Origin: Pyramidobacter sp. YE332
GTDB taxonomy: Bacteria; Synergistota; Synergistia; Synergistales; Dethiosulfovibrionaceae
Reading direction: 5' to 3'
Length of the DNA: 64,000 bases
Assembly (NCBI RefSeq): GCF_033060595.1
Contig: NZ_CP133038.1
Location: forward strand, 744,001 to 808,000
A model generated the notes under the pieces. It ran no database searches. It was given only the letters and a program-made list of their open reading frames with translations, and was not told where the DNA came from. Position 1 is the stretch's first letter. Every line of letters starts with the position of its first letter. The position numbers and the translations under genes were made by a program. Below are positions 34,992 to 49,287 of this stretch, in pieces.

Positions 34992-35025
34992 CGATCCCCG
35001 ATAAACCGACGGCCATCGGGGATCG
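34992..35025. repeat. Perfect 11-bp hairpin upstream of the aminotransferase
   Basis: CGATCCCCGAT and ATCGGGGATCG are separated by 12 bases. It lies in the 594-base gap 34886-35479 between two divergent genes. A short T run follows only on the minus strand. Function unknown. Confidence 0.5.
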
Positions 35026-35301: not shown

Positions 35302-35346
35302 CGCTGACCGCTGCGGAGGGGAGACCGATACATACAGTAAGTAATC

Positions 35347-35372
35347 TTTACGCGGGGGGGGTACGATATGAT
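35347..35372 (+). promoter_or_regulatory. Candidate adhesin promoter with a G8 tract in the spacer
   Basis: TTTACG (35347-35352) and TATGAT (35367-35372) flank a spacer of 14 bases that is mostly a run of eight G (35354-35361). A 14-base spacer is too short for good activity, but two or three extra G would give 16-17. This is the layout of phase-variable promoters in other surface-protein genes. Confidence 0.45.
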
Positions 35373-35412
35373 TGTGAACGTTCTCAGAGTAGCTTATTGT
35401 ATGCTACCACAA

Positions 35413-35457
35413 GCGCCGCGCCGGACGGAGCGCTGAAAAAGCGGAACGGCGCGGCGC
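35413..35457 (+). promoter_or_regulatory. Strong hairpin just before the adhesin ribosome-binding site
   Basis: GCGCCGCGCC and GGCGCGGCGC form a perfect 10-bp GC stem with a 25-base loop, seven bases before the GGGGAGG site. It could limit translation initiation or stabilise the mRNA. Confidence 0.55.
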
Positions 35458-38400
35458 ATATTTCGGGGAGGTCATGAAGATGAAAGTGAAAGTTACGGGA
35501 CGGCGGAAGCCGCCTTTCGGACGAAAAGCGGCGGCCCTGCTTCTGGCGCTGGCGCTGGGGGGAACGGGAAGCGCTTTCGGCGCCTGGGTCGACTGGGTCG
35601 AGGGAGGAAAGCTGAAGATCGGCCCGAATGGCTCTCCTTCTGTGGGCTTGCACGCTCTTGCCGCGATAGGGGCGGGCGCCGAAGCGATCGGCGTCAACGC
35701 TATCGCAATGGGGCAGTCGTCCTACGCCAAAGGGCAAAATTCCTTCGCTCTCGGGCTTGTGGCCCGCGCCGAAGGCAACAGTTCCTATGCGATAGGTACG
35801 AATACCAAAGCGACCAACGAAGGTTCCATCGCGATAGGGAGAGAAGCCGAGAGCACCGGCGAAATTTCCGTCGCGCTCGGGTTCAAAACGGTTGCCAAGG
35901 GCGGCTATGCCACCGCGATGGGGAACGAAACCAGTGCCGAGGGCGAGTCTTCCACCGCGATGGGGAGCAAGTCCAAAGCCATCGGCAACGTTTCCACCGC
36001 AATGGGGGTTGAGAGCGAAGCCAAGGGAGGTTCTTCCGTCGCGATGGGGTACAAAGCCCAAACCGCCGGCTACGCTTCCATCGCGATGGGGAACGTGACC
36101 CGCGCCACTGGCGCCGCTTCCACCGCGATGGGGAGCAATACCCTTGCCGAGGGCAACTATTCCACCGCGATGGGTTCAAGTTCGCAGGCGAAGGCTATAA
36201 ACTCCCTGGCGGCGTCGGGAGGCATCGTCGAAACCGCGGCGGTGAATTCCTTCGCCGTAGGCGTGGGGGCGCGCGCCGTGCGGGCCGATTCCGTCGCCCT
36301 CGGCAGCGGGGCGATGGCGGATACCGCCGCCGGGAAAGCGGCGTTTCTGGGGGCCGGGCAGAGCGGTGCGGCGTGGATCTCCACGCGCAACGCCGTCGCC
36401 GTGGGCAACCTGGCCGGTAACATTACCCGCCAGATCACCGGCGTGGCGGCCGGGACCGACAACGATGACGCCGTCAACGTGGCGCAGCTGAAGCGCGCCG
36501 CCACCTGGACCATCAAGGACAGCCAGACCCCGACGCCCGGCTCCAAAGTCATCGACGTCAGCACCCCGCTGGTGGTCAAGGGAGACGCTTACATCAAACC
36601 GGTGGTGAACGCCGCCGGGCTGAACTTCACCCTCGACCAGACCAAGCTGAACAGCCAGATCAACGCCCAGGTGAACACCAACCCCACCGTCACCGGACAC
36701 ACCACTGACATCAACGCCCTCAAAGGCGGCTTCACCGTCAGCAACGCCGCCGGCACCAAACAGACCATCACCCTCGGTGGCGCGACCAAGAAGAACATCC
36801 AGTTCGTAGGCGAAGCCAACAAAATCCTCGTCGAAGTGGCGAGCGCCGCCGACGGCGCCACCGTCACCGTGAAGACCGACCCGAACCTCGGAACTCACCT
36901 CAACATCGCCAACAACGGTGCCATCACCAGTCTGAACACCACGGTAAACGGGCACACCACCGACATCACCGCCCTGAAAGCCGGTTTCAACGTCAAATCC
37001 GGTAGCAGCGTAGGCCCGATCGTGGCCGGCGACACCCTGGAGTTCGCGGGCATCAACTACGTCCAGACCTCCTACGACGCCGCCGCCAAGAAACTGACCG
37101 TCGGCCTCGACACAACGGCGCTGAACAGCCAGATCAACAATCAGGTGAACAGCAACACCACGGTCACCCAACACGGCACCGACATCACCGCGCTCAAGAA
37201 CGGCTTCACCGTCAGCAACGCCGCAGGAACGAAACAAGACATCACCCTCGGCGGCGCGACCAAGAAGAACATCAAGTTCGAAGGCGAAACCGACAAGATC
37301 GACGTGACCGTAGCGGCCGACGGGGCTGACGGCGCAAAAGTGACCGTGACAGCCAACGCCAACCTCGGAACAAACCTCGACATCAGCAACAACGCGACCG
37401 TGACGAACCTGAGCAACACCGTGAGCGGAAACACCGCCAACATCGCCACCAACACCAGCAACATCACCAAACTGCAAGGCGGCTTCGACCTCAAAGCCGG
37501 CAGCACGACCAACAACGTCGCCTTAGGCGGAGCGACAGCCCCGACCGTGGAATTCGCGGGCGCCGACGACACCGTCACCGTCGACCTGACCGGGACGAAA
37601 GTCACCTACGGCATCGACAAGAGCAAGCTGATCACCAACATCAACAACGGCTCCACCCCGATCACCAACGTACAGGCAAAGTTCAAGATCGCCGACGCCG
37701 GGACCGGAACGAAAACCATCACCGCGGACAAGACCGGAACGGAAACCATCAAGTTCGAAGGCGACGGCGCCTACATCACCTCCGCGATGACCGCGAACGG
37801 CGTGAAGTACAGCCTCAACACCACGGCGCTGAACACCGCCATCACCAACAACACCACCGTGCAGAACCTCGCCGGCGGCTTCACCGTCAGCAACGAAGCC
37901 GGAACGAAGCAGGACATCACTTTGGGCGGCGCGTCCAAAAAGAACATCCAGTTCAAGGGCGAAGCCAACAAAATCCTCGTCGAAGTAGCCAACGCCTCCG
38001 ACGGCGCCACCGTCACCGTGAAGACCGACCCCAACCTCGGAACCAACCTCAACATCGCCAACAATTCGGCCATCAACGCGTTGAAAGACGGCTTCGACCT
38101 GAAAGCCGGCAGCACCACGTCGAACGTCGCCCTCGGCGGCGCCAAACCGACGATCGAGTTCGCGACGACCGACGACACCATGACCGTCGGCCTGACCGGC
38201 ACCAAAGTCACCTACGGCATCGACACGGCCAAACTCGCCCAGAACATCACCGGCAGCGTGATCACCAACATCAACAACGCGACCACGACCCCGATCACCA
38301 ACATCAGCGCCAAATTCGGCGTGACTGCGGAAACGGGAACGAAGAAGACCGTAACGCTGGCCAAGGACACCGAACCGACCGTCAAATTCGAAGGCGACGG

Positions 38401-38666
38401 CACCTACATCAAGTCCGCCATGACCACCGACGGCGTGAAGTACAGCCTCGACACCGCGGCCCTGACCGGCGCCATCGGCGGAACGGCGAACTGGACGATC
38501 AAGGACGCGGAAGCCGTACCGGGCAGCAAGTTGATCAACAGCGCCACTCCGCTGGTGGTCACAGGCGCCGGCGGCGTCACCACGAAAGTCGACGCGGGCG
38601 GCCTCACCATCGGCCTGGACGGTTCGACACTGAGCAATACCATCAACAACAGCTCCACCGTGATTA

Positions 38667-39546
38667 GGGCTTGTTTAAAAAACGTCAAAGTTGCCTAAAT
38701 CGATCCAATCGCTTAAACTTTTCTCATGGAAGAGAGAAGATATGAACTGACCTCCAGCGAGTGGAATCGAATCAAGAGAATGCTGCCGCCCGAACACCCG
38801 AAATCAGGTCAACGTGGACGCCCGGCAAAATACGATAACCGCAGGATCATCAATGGGATTCTGTGGCTTGCCAGAAGTGGAGCGCCATGGAGAGATCTTC
38901 CGGAGCGTTACGGCAAATGGCAGGCAGTTTACGCACGTTTCAGGCTGTGGAAACAGCGGGGAATATTCGAGGCGATCTTTGCCGCCCTAAGCGCTGATGC
39001 CGACATGGAAAATCTCTCTATCGACTCCACGTCCTGCAAAGTACATCAAAGTGCCAACGGGAGAGGGAAAACCCCGGAAGGGGGAAAAAAGGGGCTCAAG
39101 CGATTGGCATGTCCAGAGGCGGCAAGAATACGAAAATTCATGCGATAGTAGATGGTTTAGGCAATCCGCTGGCGCTCCTGCTCAGTCCCGGCAATGACCA
39201 CGATTCCCGCCATGCCGTGTCCTTGCTCGGGCAAGCGGAAATCAGAGGGAGCAACGTCATCGGCGATAAGGCTTACGGTTCGCAAGCCATCAGAGAGTAC
39301 ATTACTTCTCGGGAGGGAAGTTACACTATCCCGCCGAAGAGCGATAATCCCGAACCGTGGTTTATAGATGAGCATGTTTACAAGGAACGACACTTGGTTG
39401 AATGTTTCTTTCAGAAAATCAAATGGTTCCGTAGAATTTTCACCCGCTATGACAAACTTGACGCTTCGTTTTTCGCTTTTGTTCTTGTCGCTGCCAGTGT
39501 TATTTTATTGAAATAATACAAGCTGAAATGTTTTTTAAACAAGCCC
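38667..39546 (+). mobile_element. IS5-family element (IS427-like), copy 1, inside the adhesin gene
   Basis: The element is 880 bp with terminal inverted repeats GGGCTTGTTTAAAAAAC / GTTTTTTAAACAAGCCC, flanked by TA (38665-38666 and 39547-39548). The TA duplication and two overlapping transposase frames are typical of the IS427 group of IS5. It looks the same as the second copy at 43628-44507, so it moved recently. Precise removal restores the adhesin frame. Confidence 0.93.
38726..39516 (+). CDS. IS5-family transposase, made by -1 frameshifting (copy 1)
   Basis: Two overlapping frames encode the halves of one DDE transposase. The first (38726-39148) has the N-terminal domain and the first catalytic part (GAPWRDLPERYG, IDSTSCKVHQ). 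The second, in the -1 frame up to 39516, has SRGGKNTKIHAIVDG, VIGDKAYGS and the final VECFFQKIKWFRRI. The slippery heptamer A AAA AAG at 39085-39091 lies in the overlap, and slippage there joins KK to GAQAIGMSRGG, the usual IS5 sequence. The fused protein has about 263 residues. Some IS5 relatives also use the short product as an inhibitor. Confidence 0.9.
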
Positions 39547-41774
39547 TAATAACGTCGAAGCGAAATTCAAGATCGCCGACACCGGGACCGGAACGAAAAC
39601 CATTACCGCCGACAAAACGGGAACGGAAATCATCACGTTCGCCGGCGACGGCAACATCATCGAATCCGAAGTTGGCACGGCTGGCGTGAAGTACAAAGTC
39701 AACACCGCCAACCTGAACACCGCCATCAACAACCAGATCGCCAGCAATACCACCGTGCAGAACCTCGCCGGCGGCTTCACCGTCAGCAACGAAGCCGGAA
39801 CGAAACAGGACATTACCCTCGGTGGTGCGTCCAAAAAGAACATCAAGTTCGCAGGCGAAACCGGCAAGATCGACGTGACCGTAGCGGCCGACGGAAGCGA
39901 CGGCGCGAAAGTGACTGTGTCGGCCAACCCCAACCTCGGTCAAAACATCGACATCAGCAACAACTCCGCCATCACCACCATCACCGGCACCCTGTCCGGC
40001 GGATTGAACTTCGCCGGCAACGACGGCGCCGTCAACCGCACCCTCGGCCAGACCCTGAACCTCAAAGGCGGCCTGGCAAGCGTGACGAGTGGCGCATCCG
40101 GCAAGAACCTCGGCGTGAAAAAGAACGCCGCCGGCGACGGCTTCGACCTCGTCATGAGCGAGACCCCCGAGTTCGCCAGCGTCACAGTCAAAAGTGGCGC
40201 GAACGAAATCAAACTCAACGGCGCGACAGGCACCATCGCCGGTTTGAGCAACACCACCCTCGACGCCGGCTGGGGCGAAAACGCCCGCGCCGGACAGGCC
40301 GCCACCGAAGGCCAGCTGAAAGCCGCCGCCCTCGCCGCGGGACAGAACGCCACCTACACCATCGGCGCCGACCCCCACGGAAGCGCCCCCGGCATCCTCC
40401 TCGACAGCGCGCACAAACGCCTCGACATCATCCCCACAGGCGACGTCATCACCACCGCCGTCAGCGGACGCACCCTCAGAGTCGGCCTCGACCCCGCCAA
40501 ACTCCAGACCCTGATCAACACCACCACCGCGCCCATCACCAACATCTCCGCAAAGTTCAGCGTCAGCGACGGAGCGAGCACCCCCCACAGCCACACCGTC
40601 ACCCTTGCCCAGAACCAGACCCCCAACATCCAGTTCGTCGGCGCCTCCAACCAGATCGTCACCAACGTCACCACCACCCCCGCCGGCGGCGTCGTCACCA
40701 TCGGCCTGCACCAGGACATCCTCGACGCCATCGCCAATGGCAGCGGCGGCAGCGGCGCCTGGAACCTCCAGACCAACGGAGACACCGCCACCCCCATCGG
40801 CAACGGCGACACCGTCCAGTTCAAAAACGGCAGGAACGTCACCGTCACCCGCCCCCATAACGGCAAAGACGTCACCGTGAGCGTCGTCGACGCGCCCGTT
40901 TTTGCCGGCAAAGTGAGCGCCCAAGGCTTCGACGCAACCCACCACAAAATCGAGAACGTCAAAGCCGGAGACGTGAGCGCGGCCAGTACCGACGCCATCA
41001 ACGGAGCGCAGCTGTGGAAGGCTTCGAGCAGCCTCGCCACCCACCTCGGCGGCGGCTCCTCCGTCAACCCCGACGGCACCGTCTCCGCCCCCACCTACAA
41101 GTTCAAGTACGTGGACGGCGGCAGCTACAACACCGTCGGCGACGCCTTGAGCGCCGTAGACAAACAGTTCGGCAAAGTCTACAACAACTTCGGCAACGTC
41201 TACAACCAGATGGGCGAACTGCGGCGCGACCTCAAGAACGTCGGCGCGCTCGGCTCCGCCCTGAGTGCCTTGAAACCGATGCAGTACGACCCGCTCGAAC
41301 CCAGCCAGCTCATGGCCGGCTTCGGAACGTACAAAGGCGAATACGCCCTGGCCCTCGGCTGGGCGCACTACGTGAAAGAAGACTTCATGGTCCACGCCGG
41401 AGTGTCCGTCACCCACCACGGCGAGTCGATGGCCAACGCCGGCCTGACGTGGAAGATCGGCAGGAAAGCAGACAAGGAACAGATCCCCGAACGTTACCGC
41501 AAAGGCCCGATGAGCAGCGTCTACGTGATGCAGAAGGAGAACGCCCAGCTGCAGGCGCAGGTGGCGTCAATGGAGAAGACCAACTCCCATCAGGCCGAGG
41601 AGATCGCGGAGATGAAAGCTATGCTTACCCGCGAGATCCATGAACGGGCGGAAATGAAAGCACGCATGGCCGAGCTGGAACGTCTGCTGCGGGCGTCGAA
41701 ACGGAGATAGCGTTTCGGCTCGACGTTCCGGTCCCCGTATCGGCAATGCAAAGAGAAAGGACCGGCAATGCAGA

Positions 41775-41812
41775 GAAAAAGGGCGGAGTCTTATTCGCTC
41801 CGCCCTTCTTCT
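41775..41812 (+). terminator. Terminator after the adhesin gene
   Basis: AAGGGCGGAG and CTCCGCCCTT form a 10-bp stem with a nine-base loop followed by a T-rich tail. Confidence 0.8.
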
Positions 41813-41880
41813 TTGTTCGTTTTTTATCTGTTTCTATTTATTTTCTATCAATTTGCCATTTATTCGAGGAGGTTTTATCA

Positions 41881-42411
41881 GTGAAACGTTTGATGCAGGC
41901 GGCAGTTTTATTTCTGACATTCGCTATGTCCGCGGCGGCGTCCGCCACGGAGATCGCCGTGGTGGACACGGAAAAGCTCCTGGTCCAGTCCGAACCCGGC
42001 AAGCTGGGACGGGCCCATCTGGAGGCAGTGCAGAAAGTGCTCCAGAAAGGGTATAACGACCTGCGGGCGCTGTACCGCGGCCAGGAGAACACGGCCGAGG
42101 CGCAGAACGCGGTCGCGCAGGGACAGGCGGCGCTGGAACGGCAGATGGAAGTGGAACGCGCGGCGGTGACGTCGGTGCTGCAGTCGGAACTGATGGCGTC
42201 CGTGGAAACGTGGCGGAAGAAGAATCCGAAGTTCCACGCGGTGATGGCGCGTCAGCTGCTGCTCGACGCGGCGCCCAGGCTGGACGTCACCGACGCCGTG
42301 CTGAAGGAGATGAACAGGCGCAGGCCGAAGTTCGCCGCCCTTCCCACGGTGACGGTGAAGAAGCCGGAAGTCCCCGCCAAGGCGGAACAGGCGTCTGCGG
42401 AAGCGAAGTAA
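41881..42411 (+). CDS. OmpH/Skp-like periplasmic chaperone
   Basis: The product (176 residues) has a signal peptide (VKRLMQAAVLFLTFAMSAAA, cut near SAT), then the Skp-like start TEIAVVDTEKLL. Long charged helices (residues about 40-105) would form the tentacle coiled coil. Skp proteins hold unfolded outer-membrane proteins in the periplasm. The C-terminal part (residues 105-150) differs from classical Skp. GTG 41881 is chosen for the GAGGAGG site and the signal peptide. Its place directly after a large YadA-type adhesin suggests it helps that protein cross the periplasm. Confidence 0.75.
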   Translation: MKRLMQAAVLFLTFAMSAAASATEIAVVDTEKLLVQSEPGKLGRAHLEAVQKVLQKGYNDLRALYRGQENTAEAQNAVAQGQAALERQMEVERAAVTSVLQSELMASVETWRKKNPKFHAVMARQLLLDAAPRLDVTDAVLKEMNRRRPKFAALPTVTVKKPEVPAKAEQASAEAK

Positions 42412-43546: not shown

Positions 43547-43627
43547 CTTGAAATTCTTCAAGGTAAATGCAACGCAACATCCGGTACCCCGTTGCATTAA
43601 ATCTGAATTAAAAGGAGCTTGCATTTA

Positions 43628-44507
43628 GGGCTTGTTTAAAAAACGTCAAAGTTGCCTAAATCGATCCAATCGCTTAAACTTTTCTCATGGAAGAGAGAAG
43701 ATATGAACTGACCTCCAGCGAGTGGAATCGAATCAAGAGAATGCTGCCGCCCGAACACCCGAAATCAGGTCAACGTGGACGCCCGGCAAAATACGATAAC
43801 CGCAGGATCATCAATGGGATTCTGTGGCTTGCCAGAAGTGGAGCGCCATGGAGAGATCTTCCGGAGCGTTACGGCAAATGGCAGGCAGTTTACGCACGTT
43901 TCAGGCTGTGGAAACAGCGGGGAATATTCGAGGCGATCTTTGCCGCCCTAAGCGCTGATGCCGACATGGAAAATCTCTCTATCGACTCCACGTCCTGCAA
44001 AGTACATCAAAGTGCCAACGGGAGAGGGAAAACCCCGGAAGGGGGAAAAAAGGGGCTCAAGCGATTGGCATGTCCAGAGGCGGCAAGAATACGAAAATTC
44101 ATGCGATAGTAGATGGTTTAGGCAATCCGCTGGCGCTCCTGCTCAGTCCCGGCAATGACCACGATTCCCGCCATGCCGTGTCCTTGCTCGGGCAAGCGGA
44201 AATCAGAGGGAGCAACGTCATCGGCGATAAGGCTTACGGTTCGCAAGCCATCAGAGAGTACATTACTTCTCGGGAGGGAAGTTACACTATCCCGCCGAAG
44301 AGCGATAATCCCGAACCGTGGTTTATAGATGAGCATGTTTACAAGGAACGACACTTGGTTGAATGTTTCTTTCAGAAAATCAAATGGTTCCGTAGAATTT
44401 TCACCCGCTATGACAAACTTGACGCTTCGTTTTTCGCTTTTGTTCTTGTCGCTGCCAGTGTTATTTTATTGAAATAATACAAGCTGAAATGTTTTTTAAA
44501 CAAGCCC
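43628..44507 (+). mobile_element. IS5-family element (IS427-like), copy 2, inside IS30 copy 2
   Basis: The 880-bp sequence and inverted repeats are those of copy 1. It is flanked by TA (43626-43627, 44508-44509). Comparison with IS30 copy 1 shows the empty site GCATTTAGTCTGAATT, which proves a simple insertion with TA duplication. It lies between the left end of IS30 and its transposase gene. Confidence 0.95.
43687..44477 (+). CDS. IS5-family transposase, made by -1 frameshifting (copy 2)
   Basis: The two frames (43687-44109 and the -1 frame to 44477) encode the same residues as the copy at 38726-39516. The slippery heptamer A AAA AAG is at 44046-44052. The fused product has about 263 residues with an apparently intact DDE core, so this copy could supply transposase for both elements. 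Confidence 0.9.
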
Positions 44508-44570
44508 TAGTCTGAATTGATGAAAGACCTTTCTTACGAGACAACAGATCTCGGAAAGGAGTTCATCATC

Positions 44571-48060: not shown

Positions 48061-49287
48061 ATGAACTTTTGGTCCAAGCTGTCCATGTCCCGTAAGATCG
48101 TCGTCATGATGTGCGTCGGTATCGCCGCCGGCATTTACTGGGGCCCTGCCGTGACGGTGATCAAGCCTGTCGGCGACCTGTTCCTGCGCCTGCTCAAGAT
48201 GCTGATCGTGCCGCTGGTGTTCTTCACTCTGGTCGCCGGGGTGACCAGCATGGAGAGCCCCGGGAGCCTGAAAAAGATCGGCGGTTTCATCGTCGCCTTT
48301 TACCTTTTGTCTTCTCTCGTTTTTGCCGCTATGGGCACCGGCGTGGCGCTTGCGCTCCGCCCCGGCAGGGGAGCCGAGGGCGTGCTCGGCTCCGTGGTCA
48401 AGGAAGTGACGGTCGGCAGGTATTCGGCGATCGACACGATCCTCAACTGGATCCCCGAGAATCCCGTGGCTTCCATGGCCAACATGAACATGATCCAGGT
48501 GATTTTCTTCGCGCTGATCACGGGCGTGGCGCTGCTGCACCTGAAAGACAGGGTCCCCGCGGCGATCGCTTTTTTCCGCAACATGGCCGACGTGATGATC
48601 AAGATCACCGAGTTCGTCATGGGCTTCGCCCCCTACGGCATCGGCGCGCTGGTCGCCTGCGTGGCGGGCACGATCGGCGGCAAGATGATGACGGCGATCG
48701 CCAAGTTCTTCGTCGCCGATTACGCGGCGATCCTAGCGGGCATGTTCGTCGTGTATCCGCTGGCGCTGAAGATCTGGAACGTCCCCGCTCTGCGCTTCTT
48801 CAAGCACGTGGCTCCGGCCATGCTGGTGGCCGCCACGACGACTTCCAGCGCCGCGACGCTGCCGATGGAGATGAACATCGCCGAGGAAAAACTCGGCCTC
48901 GACGAGAGCGTTTACGGGTTCTCGCTGCCGCTGGGCAACACGATGAACATGAACGGCATGGCCGCCGCTTTCGGCGTGATCGCCGTCTTCGCTTTCGACA
49001 TCTTCGGCGTGGAGATCACGCCGCTCCGTCTCGTGCAGACCGTTCTGCTGGGGCTCATGCTGGCGGTCGGCGCCGCCGGCGTAAAGGGCGCGGGGATCGT
49101 TATGTCCGCCGTGTTCTTCGAGTCGCTGGGGCTGCCGCTTGGCCTCGTCCCCATCCTGGCGGCGATCTGGCCCGTGATCGACATTCCCCATACGACCGGC
49201 AACGTCACCGGCGACATGGTCGGCACGATGGCGGCCTGCGCCAGATTCGGCAAGGTGGACTGGAACGTTTTCAACGCCGACGCGTAG
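48061..49287 (+). CDS. Dicarboxylate/amino-acid:cation symporter (DAACS family)
   Basis: The product (408 residues) is an inner-membrane symporter of the DctA/GltP family. It has about eight transmembrane helices. The conserved serine-rich stretch is in TTTSSAATLPM (residues about 260-270) and the NMNG motif in NTMNMNGMAAAFG near residue 300. The likely substrates are C4-dicarboxylates, glutamate or aspartate. GAAGGAGG precedes ATG 48061. It is the last gene of the LysR-linked operon and is followed by a terminator. Confidence 0.9.
   Translation: MNFWSKLSMSRKIVVMMCVGIAAGIYWGPAVTVIKPVGDLFLRLLKMLIVPLVFFTLVAGVTSMESPGSLKKIGGFIVAFYLLSSLVFAAMGTGVALALRPGRGAEGVLGSVVKEVTVGRYSAIDTILNWIPENPVASMANMNMIQVIFFALITGVALLHLKDRVPAAIAFFRNMADVMIKITEFVMGFAPYGIGALVACVAGTIGGKMMTAIAKFFVADYAAILAGMFVVYPLALKIWNVPALRFFKHVAPAMLVAATTTSSAATLPMEMNIAEEKLGLDESVYGFSLPLGNTMNMNGMAAAFGVIAVFAFDIFGVEITPLRLVQTVLLGLMLAVGAAGVKGAGIVMSAVFFESLGLPLGLVPILAAIWPVIDIPHTTGNVTGDMVGTMAACARFGKVDWNVFNADA

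Follow-up and report, generated by a model that had tools for sequence, protein, structure and literature searches.

The Adhesin Locus and Its G8 Tract

The DNA analyzed here (the window) is a stretch of 64,000 nucleotides from the genome of Pyramidobacter sp. YE332, a strain originating from cattle rumen fermentation and sequenced on the PacBio RS II (PMC11008178); its assembly comprises two contigs and 2,795,328 bases in total, of which 2,777,081 belong to the larger contig. Within the window, a gene for a YadA-type adhesin is preceded by a run of eight G residues (positions 35354-35361, + strand), itself preceded by a C at 35353 and lying between two promoter-like hexamers. As read from the sequence, positions 35344-35372 are ATCTTTACGC-GGGGGGGG-TACGA-TATGAT. 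The putative -35 element TTTACG (35347-35352, +), which agrees with the -35 consensus at four of six positions, is part of a conserved ATCTTTACRC (35344-35353) common to the nine adhesin promoters described below. The putative -10 element is TATGAT (35367-35372, +), and it lacks the preceding TGn that is present in most other copies. An earlier note on this DNA had described TTTACG and TATGAT around a 14-base spacer consisting mostly of G8, which proved exact when the sequence was re-read, and had called the tract the longest G run noticed in the window. No longer run of G or of C occurs there, the second being a C7 at 58384. A consensus promoter scan of the window reported no promoter at the G8 site, because a 14-base spacer falls outside the 16-18 bases that the scan allows.

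Downstream of the boxes a GC-rich hairpin is predicted in the putative 5' leader (35413-35457, +), the fold of 35379-35500 having an energy of -42.9 kcal/mol and a z of -2.5 against shuffled sequences. Rfam returned no match for the leader, and on that ground its reading as an RNA element was dropped. A Shine-Dalgarno sequence, GGGGAGG (35465-35471, +), precedes the likely start codon, ATG at 35480-35482, which is preferred because the ATG at 35474 lies too near the Shine-Dalgarno sequence. The divergently transcribed aminotransferase gene has a terminator-like hairpin in its leader (34992-35025, - strand), possibly an attenuator.

All three kinds of YadA-type domain, head, stalk and anchor (PF05658, PF05662 and PF03895), are found in the adhesin, but no single uninterrupted frame holds the signal peptide, head and anchor together. 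The 5' part (35474-38698, +) encodes the signal peptide, the YadA head repeats (PF05658, E 6e-28) and stalk (PF05662, E 2e-7), and its reading frame terminates within an insertion sequence of the IS4/5 type (IS5-like; about 38665-39550, +; PF13340 and PF01609) with inverted ends TAGGGCTTGTTTAAAAAAC, whose transposase is read as two overlapping frames, 38726-39148 and 39109-39516. The 3' part (39686-41710, +), comprising stalk (PF05662) and the YadA membrane anchor (PF03895, E 1e-12), is severed from the promoter and the signal peptide. Since the insertion splits the gene, the window copy probably drives no anchored adhesin: in YE332 as assembled, at most an anchorless fragment is probably made, and the tract is probably a switch standing before a broken gene. 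The earlier note had placed the tract upstream of the only adhesin gene recognized in the window. An adhesin gene does lie downstream, but its division by the insertion and the 17 YadA anchors encoded genome-wide had been missed, as had the lack of TGn in this copy and the limited reliability of homopolymer lengths in the assembly.

Identical copies of the insertion sequence are present at 43626-44509 of the window, at genome position 2341222, and within the adhesin gene at 278396. The element appears to have been recently active, inserting into the stalks of two adhesins, that of the window and that at 278396. Directly after the window adhesin (41746-42411) lies a gene for an OmpH/Skp-like periplasmic chaperone that possibly helps adhesin export.

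A Cassette Shared by Nine Adhesin Genes

The exact motif TCTTTACRC-G(n) (TCTTTACRCGGGG) occurs nine times in the YE332 genome, and every copy is followed by an open reading frame for a YadA-type trimeric autotransporter adhesin; in five of the nine loci one long frame extends up to the anchor region. By genome position, the copies lie at 228361 (n = 10, spacer 16), 278396 (n = 6, spacer 12), 485113 (n = 11, spacer 16), 779354 (the window copy; n = 8, spacer 14), 1116030 (n = 9, spacer 15), 1271154 (n = 13, spacer 18), 1585849 (n = 8, spacer 15), 1985941 (n = 5, spacer 11) and 2326144 (n = 8, spacer 14). All nine have a G homopolymer, of 5 to 13 residues, between recognizable -35 and -10 elements, and the spacers, at 11-18 bases, range around the 17-base optimum of porA and tp0126. 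A TAnnnT hexamer stands 4-6 bases past the G tract in all nine, and at the same place in both promoters of a congener (below); TGn precedes it in seven copies, and CGA takes its place in the window copy and in its twin at 2326144. The sequence (T/C)GnTAnnnT follows eight of eight distinct cassette tracts versus one of 376 other tracts of at least five G in 436 kb of the genome, a comparison that is descriptive since the pattern was derived from these very loci, some of them paralogous. The eight further copies, which share the -35, the position of the -10 and the tract, support the earlier proposal that an adhesin promoter here has poly-G in its spacer. That proposal had also held that added G residues would bring the spacing to normal, and paralogues with 10, 11 and 13 G indeed have spacers of 16, 16 and 18 bases.

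Upstream of the cassette the loci have mostly diverged. In the 56 bases before the motif, ungapped identity between loci is mostly 25-55%; close copies (83-94%) are restricted to the window, 278396 and 2326144, and one further pair is 67% identical. Recent duplication alone was dropped as an account of the recurrence, given that only these few upstream regions are close. The putative promoter core is retained across diverged upstream flanks while the G count varies.

Tract Length in a Second Strain

Strain C12-8, also from the bovine rumen, has 99.01% average nucleotide identity to YE332 (PMC11008178). Cassette tract lengths in YE332 and C12-8, respectively, are 10/10, 6/9, 9/9, 13/9, 8/9 and 5/5. 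No counterpart of the window tract was found in C12-8, whose contig stops upstream of it. When two adhesin tracts of other kinds are included, the strains disagree in length at five of the eight adhesin tracts, a count to be read with the knowledge that the YE332 assembly under-calls homopolymers. This was established in a 115.6-kb control, in which 10 of 506 homopolymers of at least five bases differ and YE332 has the shorter version in all ten; control G tracts, too, differ at times, and in the same direction. As all ten differences are shorter in YE332, homopolymer frameshifts in this assembly are to be distrusted. The differences 6/9, 8/9 and 8/11 become doubtful and may be partly errors, and the G8 of the window may be a minimum, the true tract being perhaps longer. 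The differences between the strains accordingly carry less weight as a demonstration of slippage. Only two run against the direction of error: 13/9, with flanks that are 92% identical, and the C10/C8 tract described next. Taken together, the strain data support a change in tract length but do not prove it.

The first of the two other tracts is a C10 (+ strand) at genome position 2497292, about 130 bases before the adhesin gene at 2497440, and is C8 in C12-8; this adhesin has a different promoter region, and the tract is a second kind of candidate for slippage. The other is a G8 near 1686836, between the start codon of an adhesin and its signal peptide, which is G11 in C12-8. The adhesin is out of frame in YE332 and in frame in C12-8, with GGAA ahead of the run. 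It may be a candidate translational switch, or an instance of under-calling.

Distribution in Other Genomes

Two related promoters are found in a Pyramidobacter congener (G001). One reads TTTACG-CGCGGAGAGAGGGATGA-TATGAT, where other bases interrupt the tract and the spacer is 17; the second is TTTACA-C-G10-TATGG-TATGTT, with a spacer of 16. We read the interrupted tract as a formerly pure one that became mixed while its spacing was optimal. Among GTDB genome contigs, the motif followed by TGATA gave four matches in C12-8 and three single matches in unrelated bacteria that lack the -10 layout, and the motif was absent from viral contigs. With a looser pattern applied to 183 genomes of the order, the only matches outside Pyramidobacter came from genus g5 (six genomes) and genus g17 (one genome); on inspection these showed no cassette and no visible adhesin head, and several of the tracts lay inside reading frames.

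The Synergistales genus g5, which belongs to another family, has runs of 10-13 G within the starts of open reading frames and a G12 between TTGACA and TATGAT (L232, L235 and L237). These poly-G tracts are possible independent slippage loci.

A Proposed Promoter-Spacer Switch and Its Alternatives

We consider it highly probable that the cassettes form a family-wide system of promoter-spacer phase variation, in which a slippage-prone G(n) cassette precedes half of the genome's trimeric autotransporter adhesins. The cassette may be written ATCTTTACRC-G(n)-nnTGn-TAtgaT. If the main sigma factor uses these boxes and transcription starts from them, slippage during replication in the cell would change n, and with it the gap that separates TTTACR, the -35, from a -10 that is mostly of the extended type. 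A spacer near 16-18 would give high transcription, and one of 11-15 low transcription or none, so that expression would be graded. Independent slippage at each locus would yield a population with many combinations of surface adhesins.

The alternative that survives best, although we judge it unlikely, is that the cassette is a real promoter shared by the adhesins whose tract is stable in the cell, n being an old, fixed spacing that sets a lasting strength for each gene. The G10, G9 and G5 tracts that are the same in both strains are compatible with such stability, and under-calling accounts in part for the tracts that are not. Arguing the other way are the two differences opposite to the direction of error, 13/9 and C10/C8, and the scarcity of long runs elsewhere. 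For G or C runs of at least eight, a first-order model predicts about 1.6 per 64 kb or 69 per genome, and 12 are observed (0.27 per 64 kb); pure tracts of 8-13 G are nevertheless retained at these promoters. Of the 12, nine are placed either at the 5' end of a YadA-type adhesin gene or a short distance ahead of it (binomial P about 1e-21, a descriptive value only, as the distance limits were chosen after looking). The remaining runs are in a tRNA-Leu gene at 1344766 and at 48138 and 1870341, where no adhesin anchor is nearby.

Less probable again is a promoter whose true -10 lies upstream of the tract, as TATCTT or AATCTT, with the G residues at the start of the transcript and acting through slippage of RNA polymerase or early elongation. 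The ATCTTTAC sequence is strongly conserved, and several copies have a -10-like TATCTT; some copies, however, have CATCTT or AATCTT, on our reading of the sequences no conserved -35 stands about 17 bases ahead, and the conserved TGnTAnnnT past the tract would be left unexplained. Slightly more remote still is the view that the G tract promotes recombination among the adhesin genes, by gene conversion or through a G-quadruplex like that of pilE, instead of acting on transcription. The near-identity of some upstream regions (83-94%) would suit this, but most copies are without long flanking homology, an intramolecular quadruplex would need more than a single run of 5-13 G, and the spacing to the -35 and -10 is preserved. 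A chance G run in a GC-rich genome beside weak promoter-like hexamers, for which one could cite the predicted frequency of such runs, is refuted by the recurrence of the whole motif in nine exact copies, every one at an adhesin.

Relation to Known Systems and Significance

Promoter-spacer switching by a homopolymer has been demonstrated experimentally for porA and tp0126, with an optimum of 17 (PMC7864442), and for fetA (PMC5320596), all of the design proposed here for the YE332 cassette. In Neisseria porA and fetA, the promoter of an outer-membrane protein gene likewise has a G or C homopolymer between its -35 and its -10, and the spacing sets transcription; the device there serves one or two unrelated genes, whereas in YE332 one cassette with a mostly extended -10 would switch nine paralogous trimeric autotransporters. 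Treponema pallidum has promoter poly-G tracts on several outer-membrane protein genes, that of tp0126 being between the -35 and -10 (PMC7864442). The tuning of an adhesin promoter by length of a homopolymer is also represented by Helicobacter pylori sabA, in which a T tract varies by slippage (PMC4081817). The Treponema tp0126 and tpr genes belong to other protein families than the YE332 adhesins, and the tpr tracts are partly outside the spacer; the sabA tract lies beside the -35 and affects UP-like elements, in contrast to the -35/-10 spacer of YE332. The uspA1 product of Moraxella catarrhalis is a trimeric autotransporter, and the G(n) of its gene is not known to form a clear -35/-10 spacer. 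This system resembles that of YE332 as an adhesin with upstream G(n) but is a single locus, versus nine. The tract lies upstream of the uspA1 open reading frame, and the mRNA level depends on n, which is 8-12 (PMC7302503).

No paper linking Pyramidobacter or Synergistota with such phase variation was found in the literature searched, which was open-access with few subscription journals. The promoter-spacer device is known; what appears to be new is its deployment in nine copies on the trimeric autotransporters of a commensal from Synergistota. A broader reading, to which we give a little better than an even chance, is that this rumen commensal randomizes its surface, with the slippage cassette before at least nine trimeric autotransporters and, in addition, two adhesins with poly-C upstream or poly-G in the signal region.

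The nine spacer lengths within one genome, together with the interrupted tract of the congener, constitute a natural test set for the relation of spacer length to promoter strength. Promoter-spacer phase variation is best known in human pathogens, and a set of nine adhesin loci in a commensal of the rumen would be an example of this device put to use in gut colonization. If the broader reading holds, the switch would provide a non-pathogen with a combinatorial adhesin coat and would be the first phase-variation system described in Synergistota.
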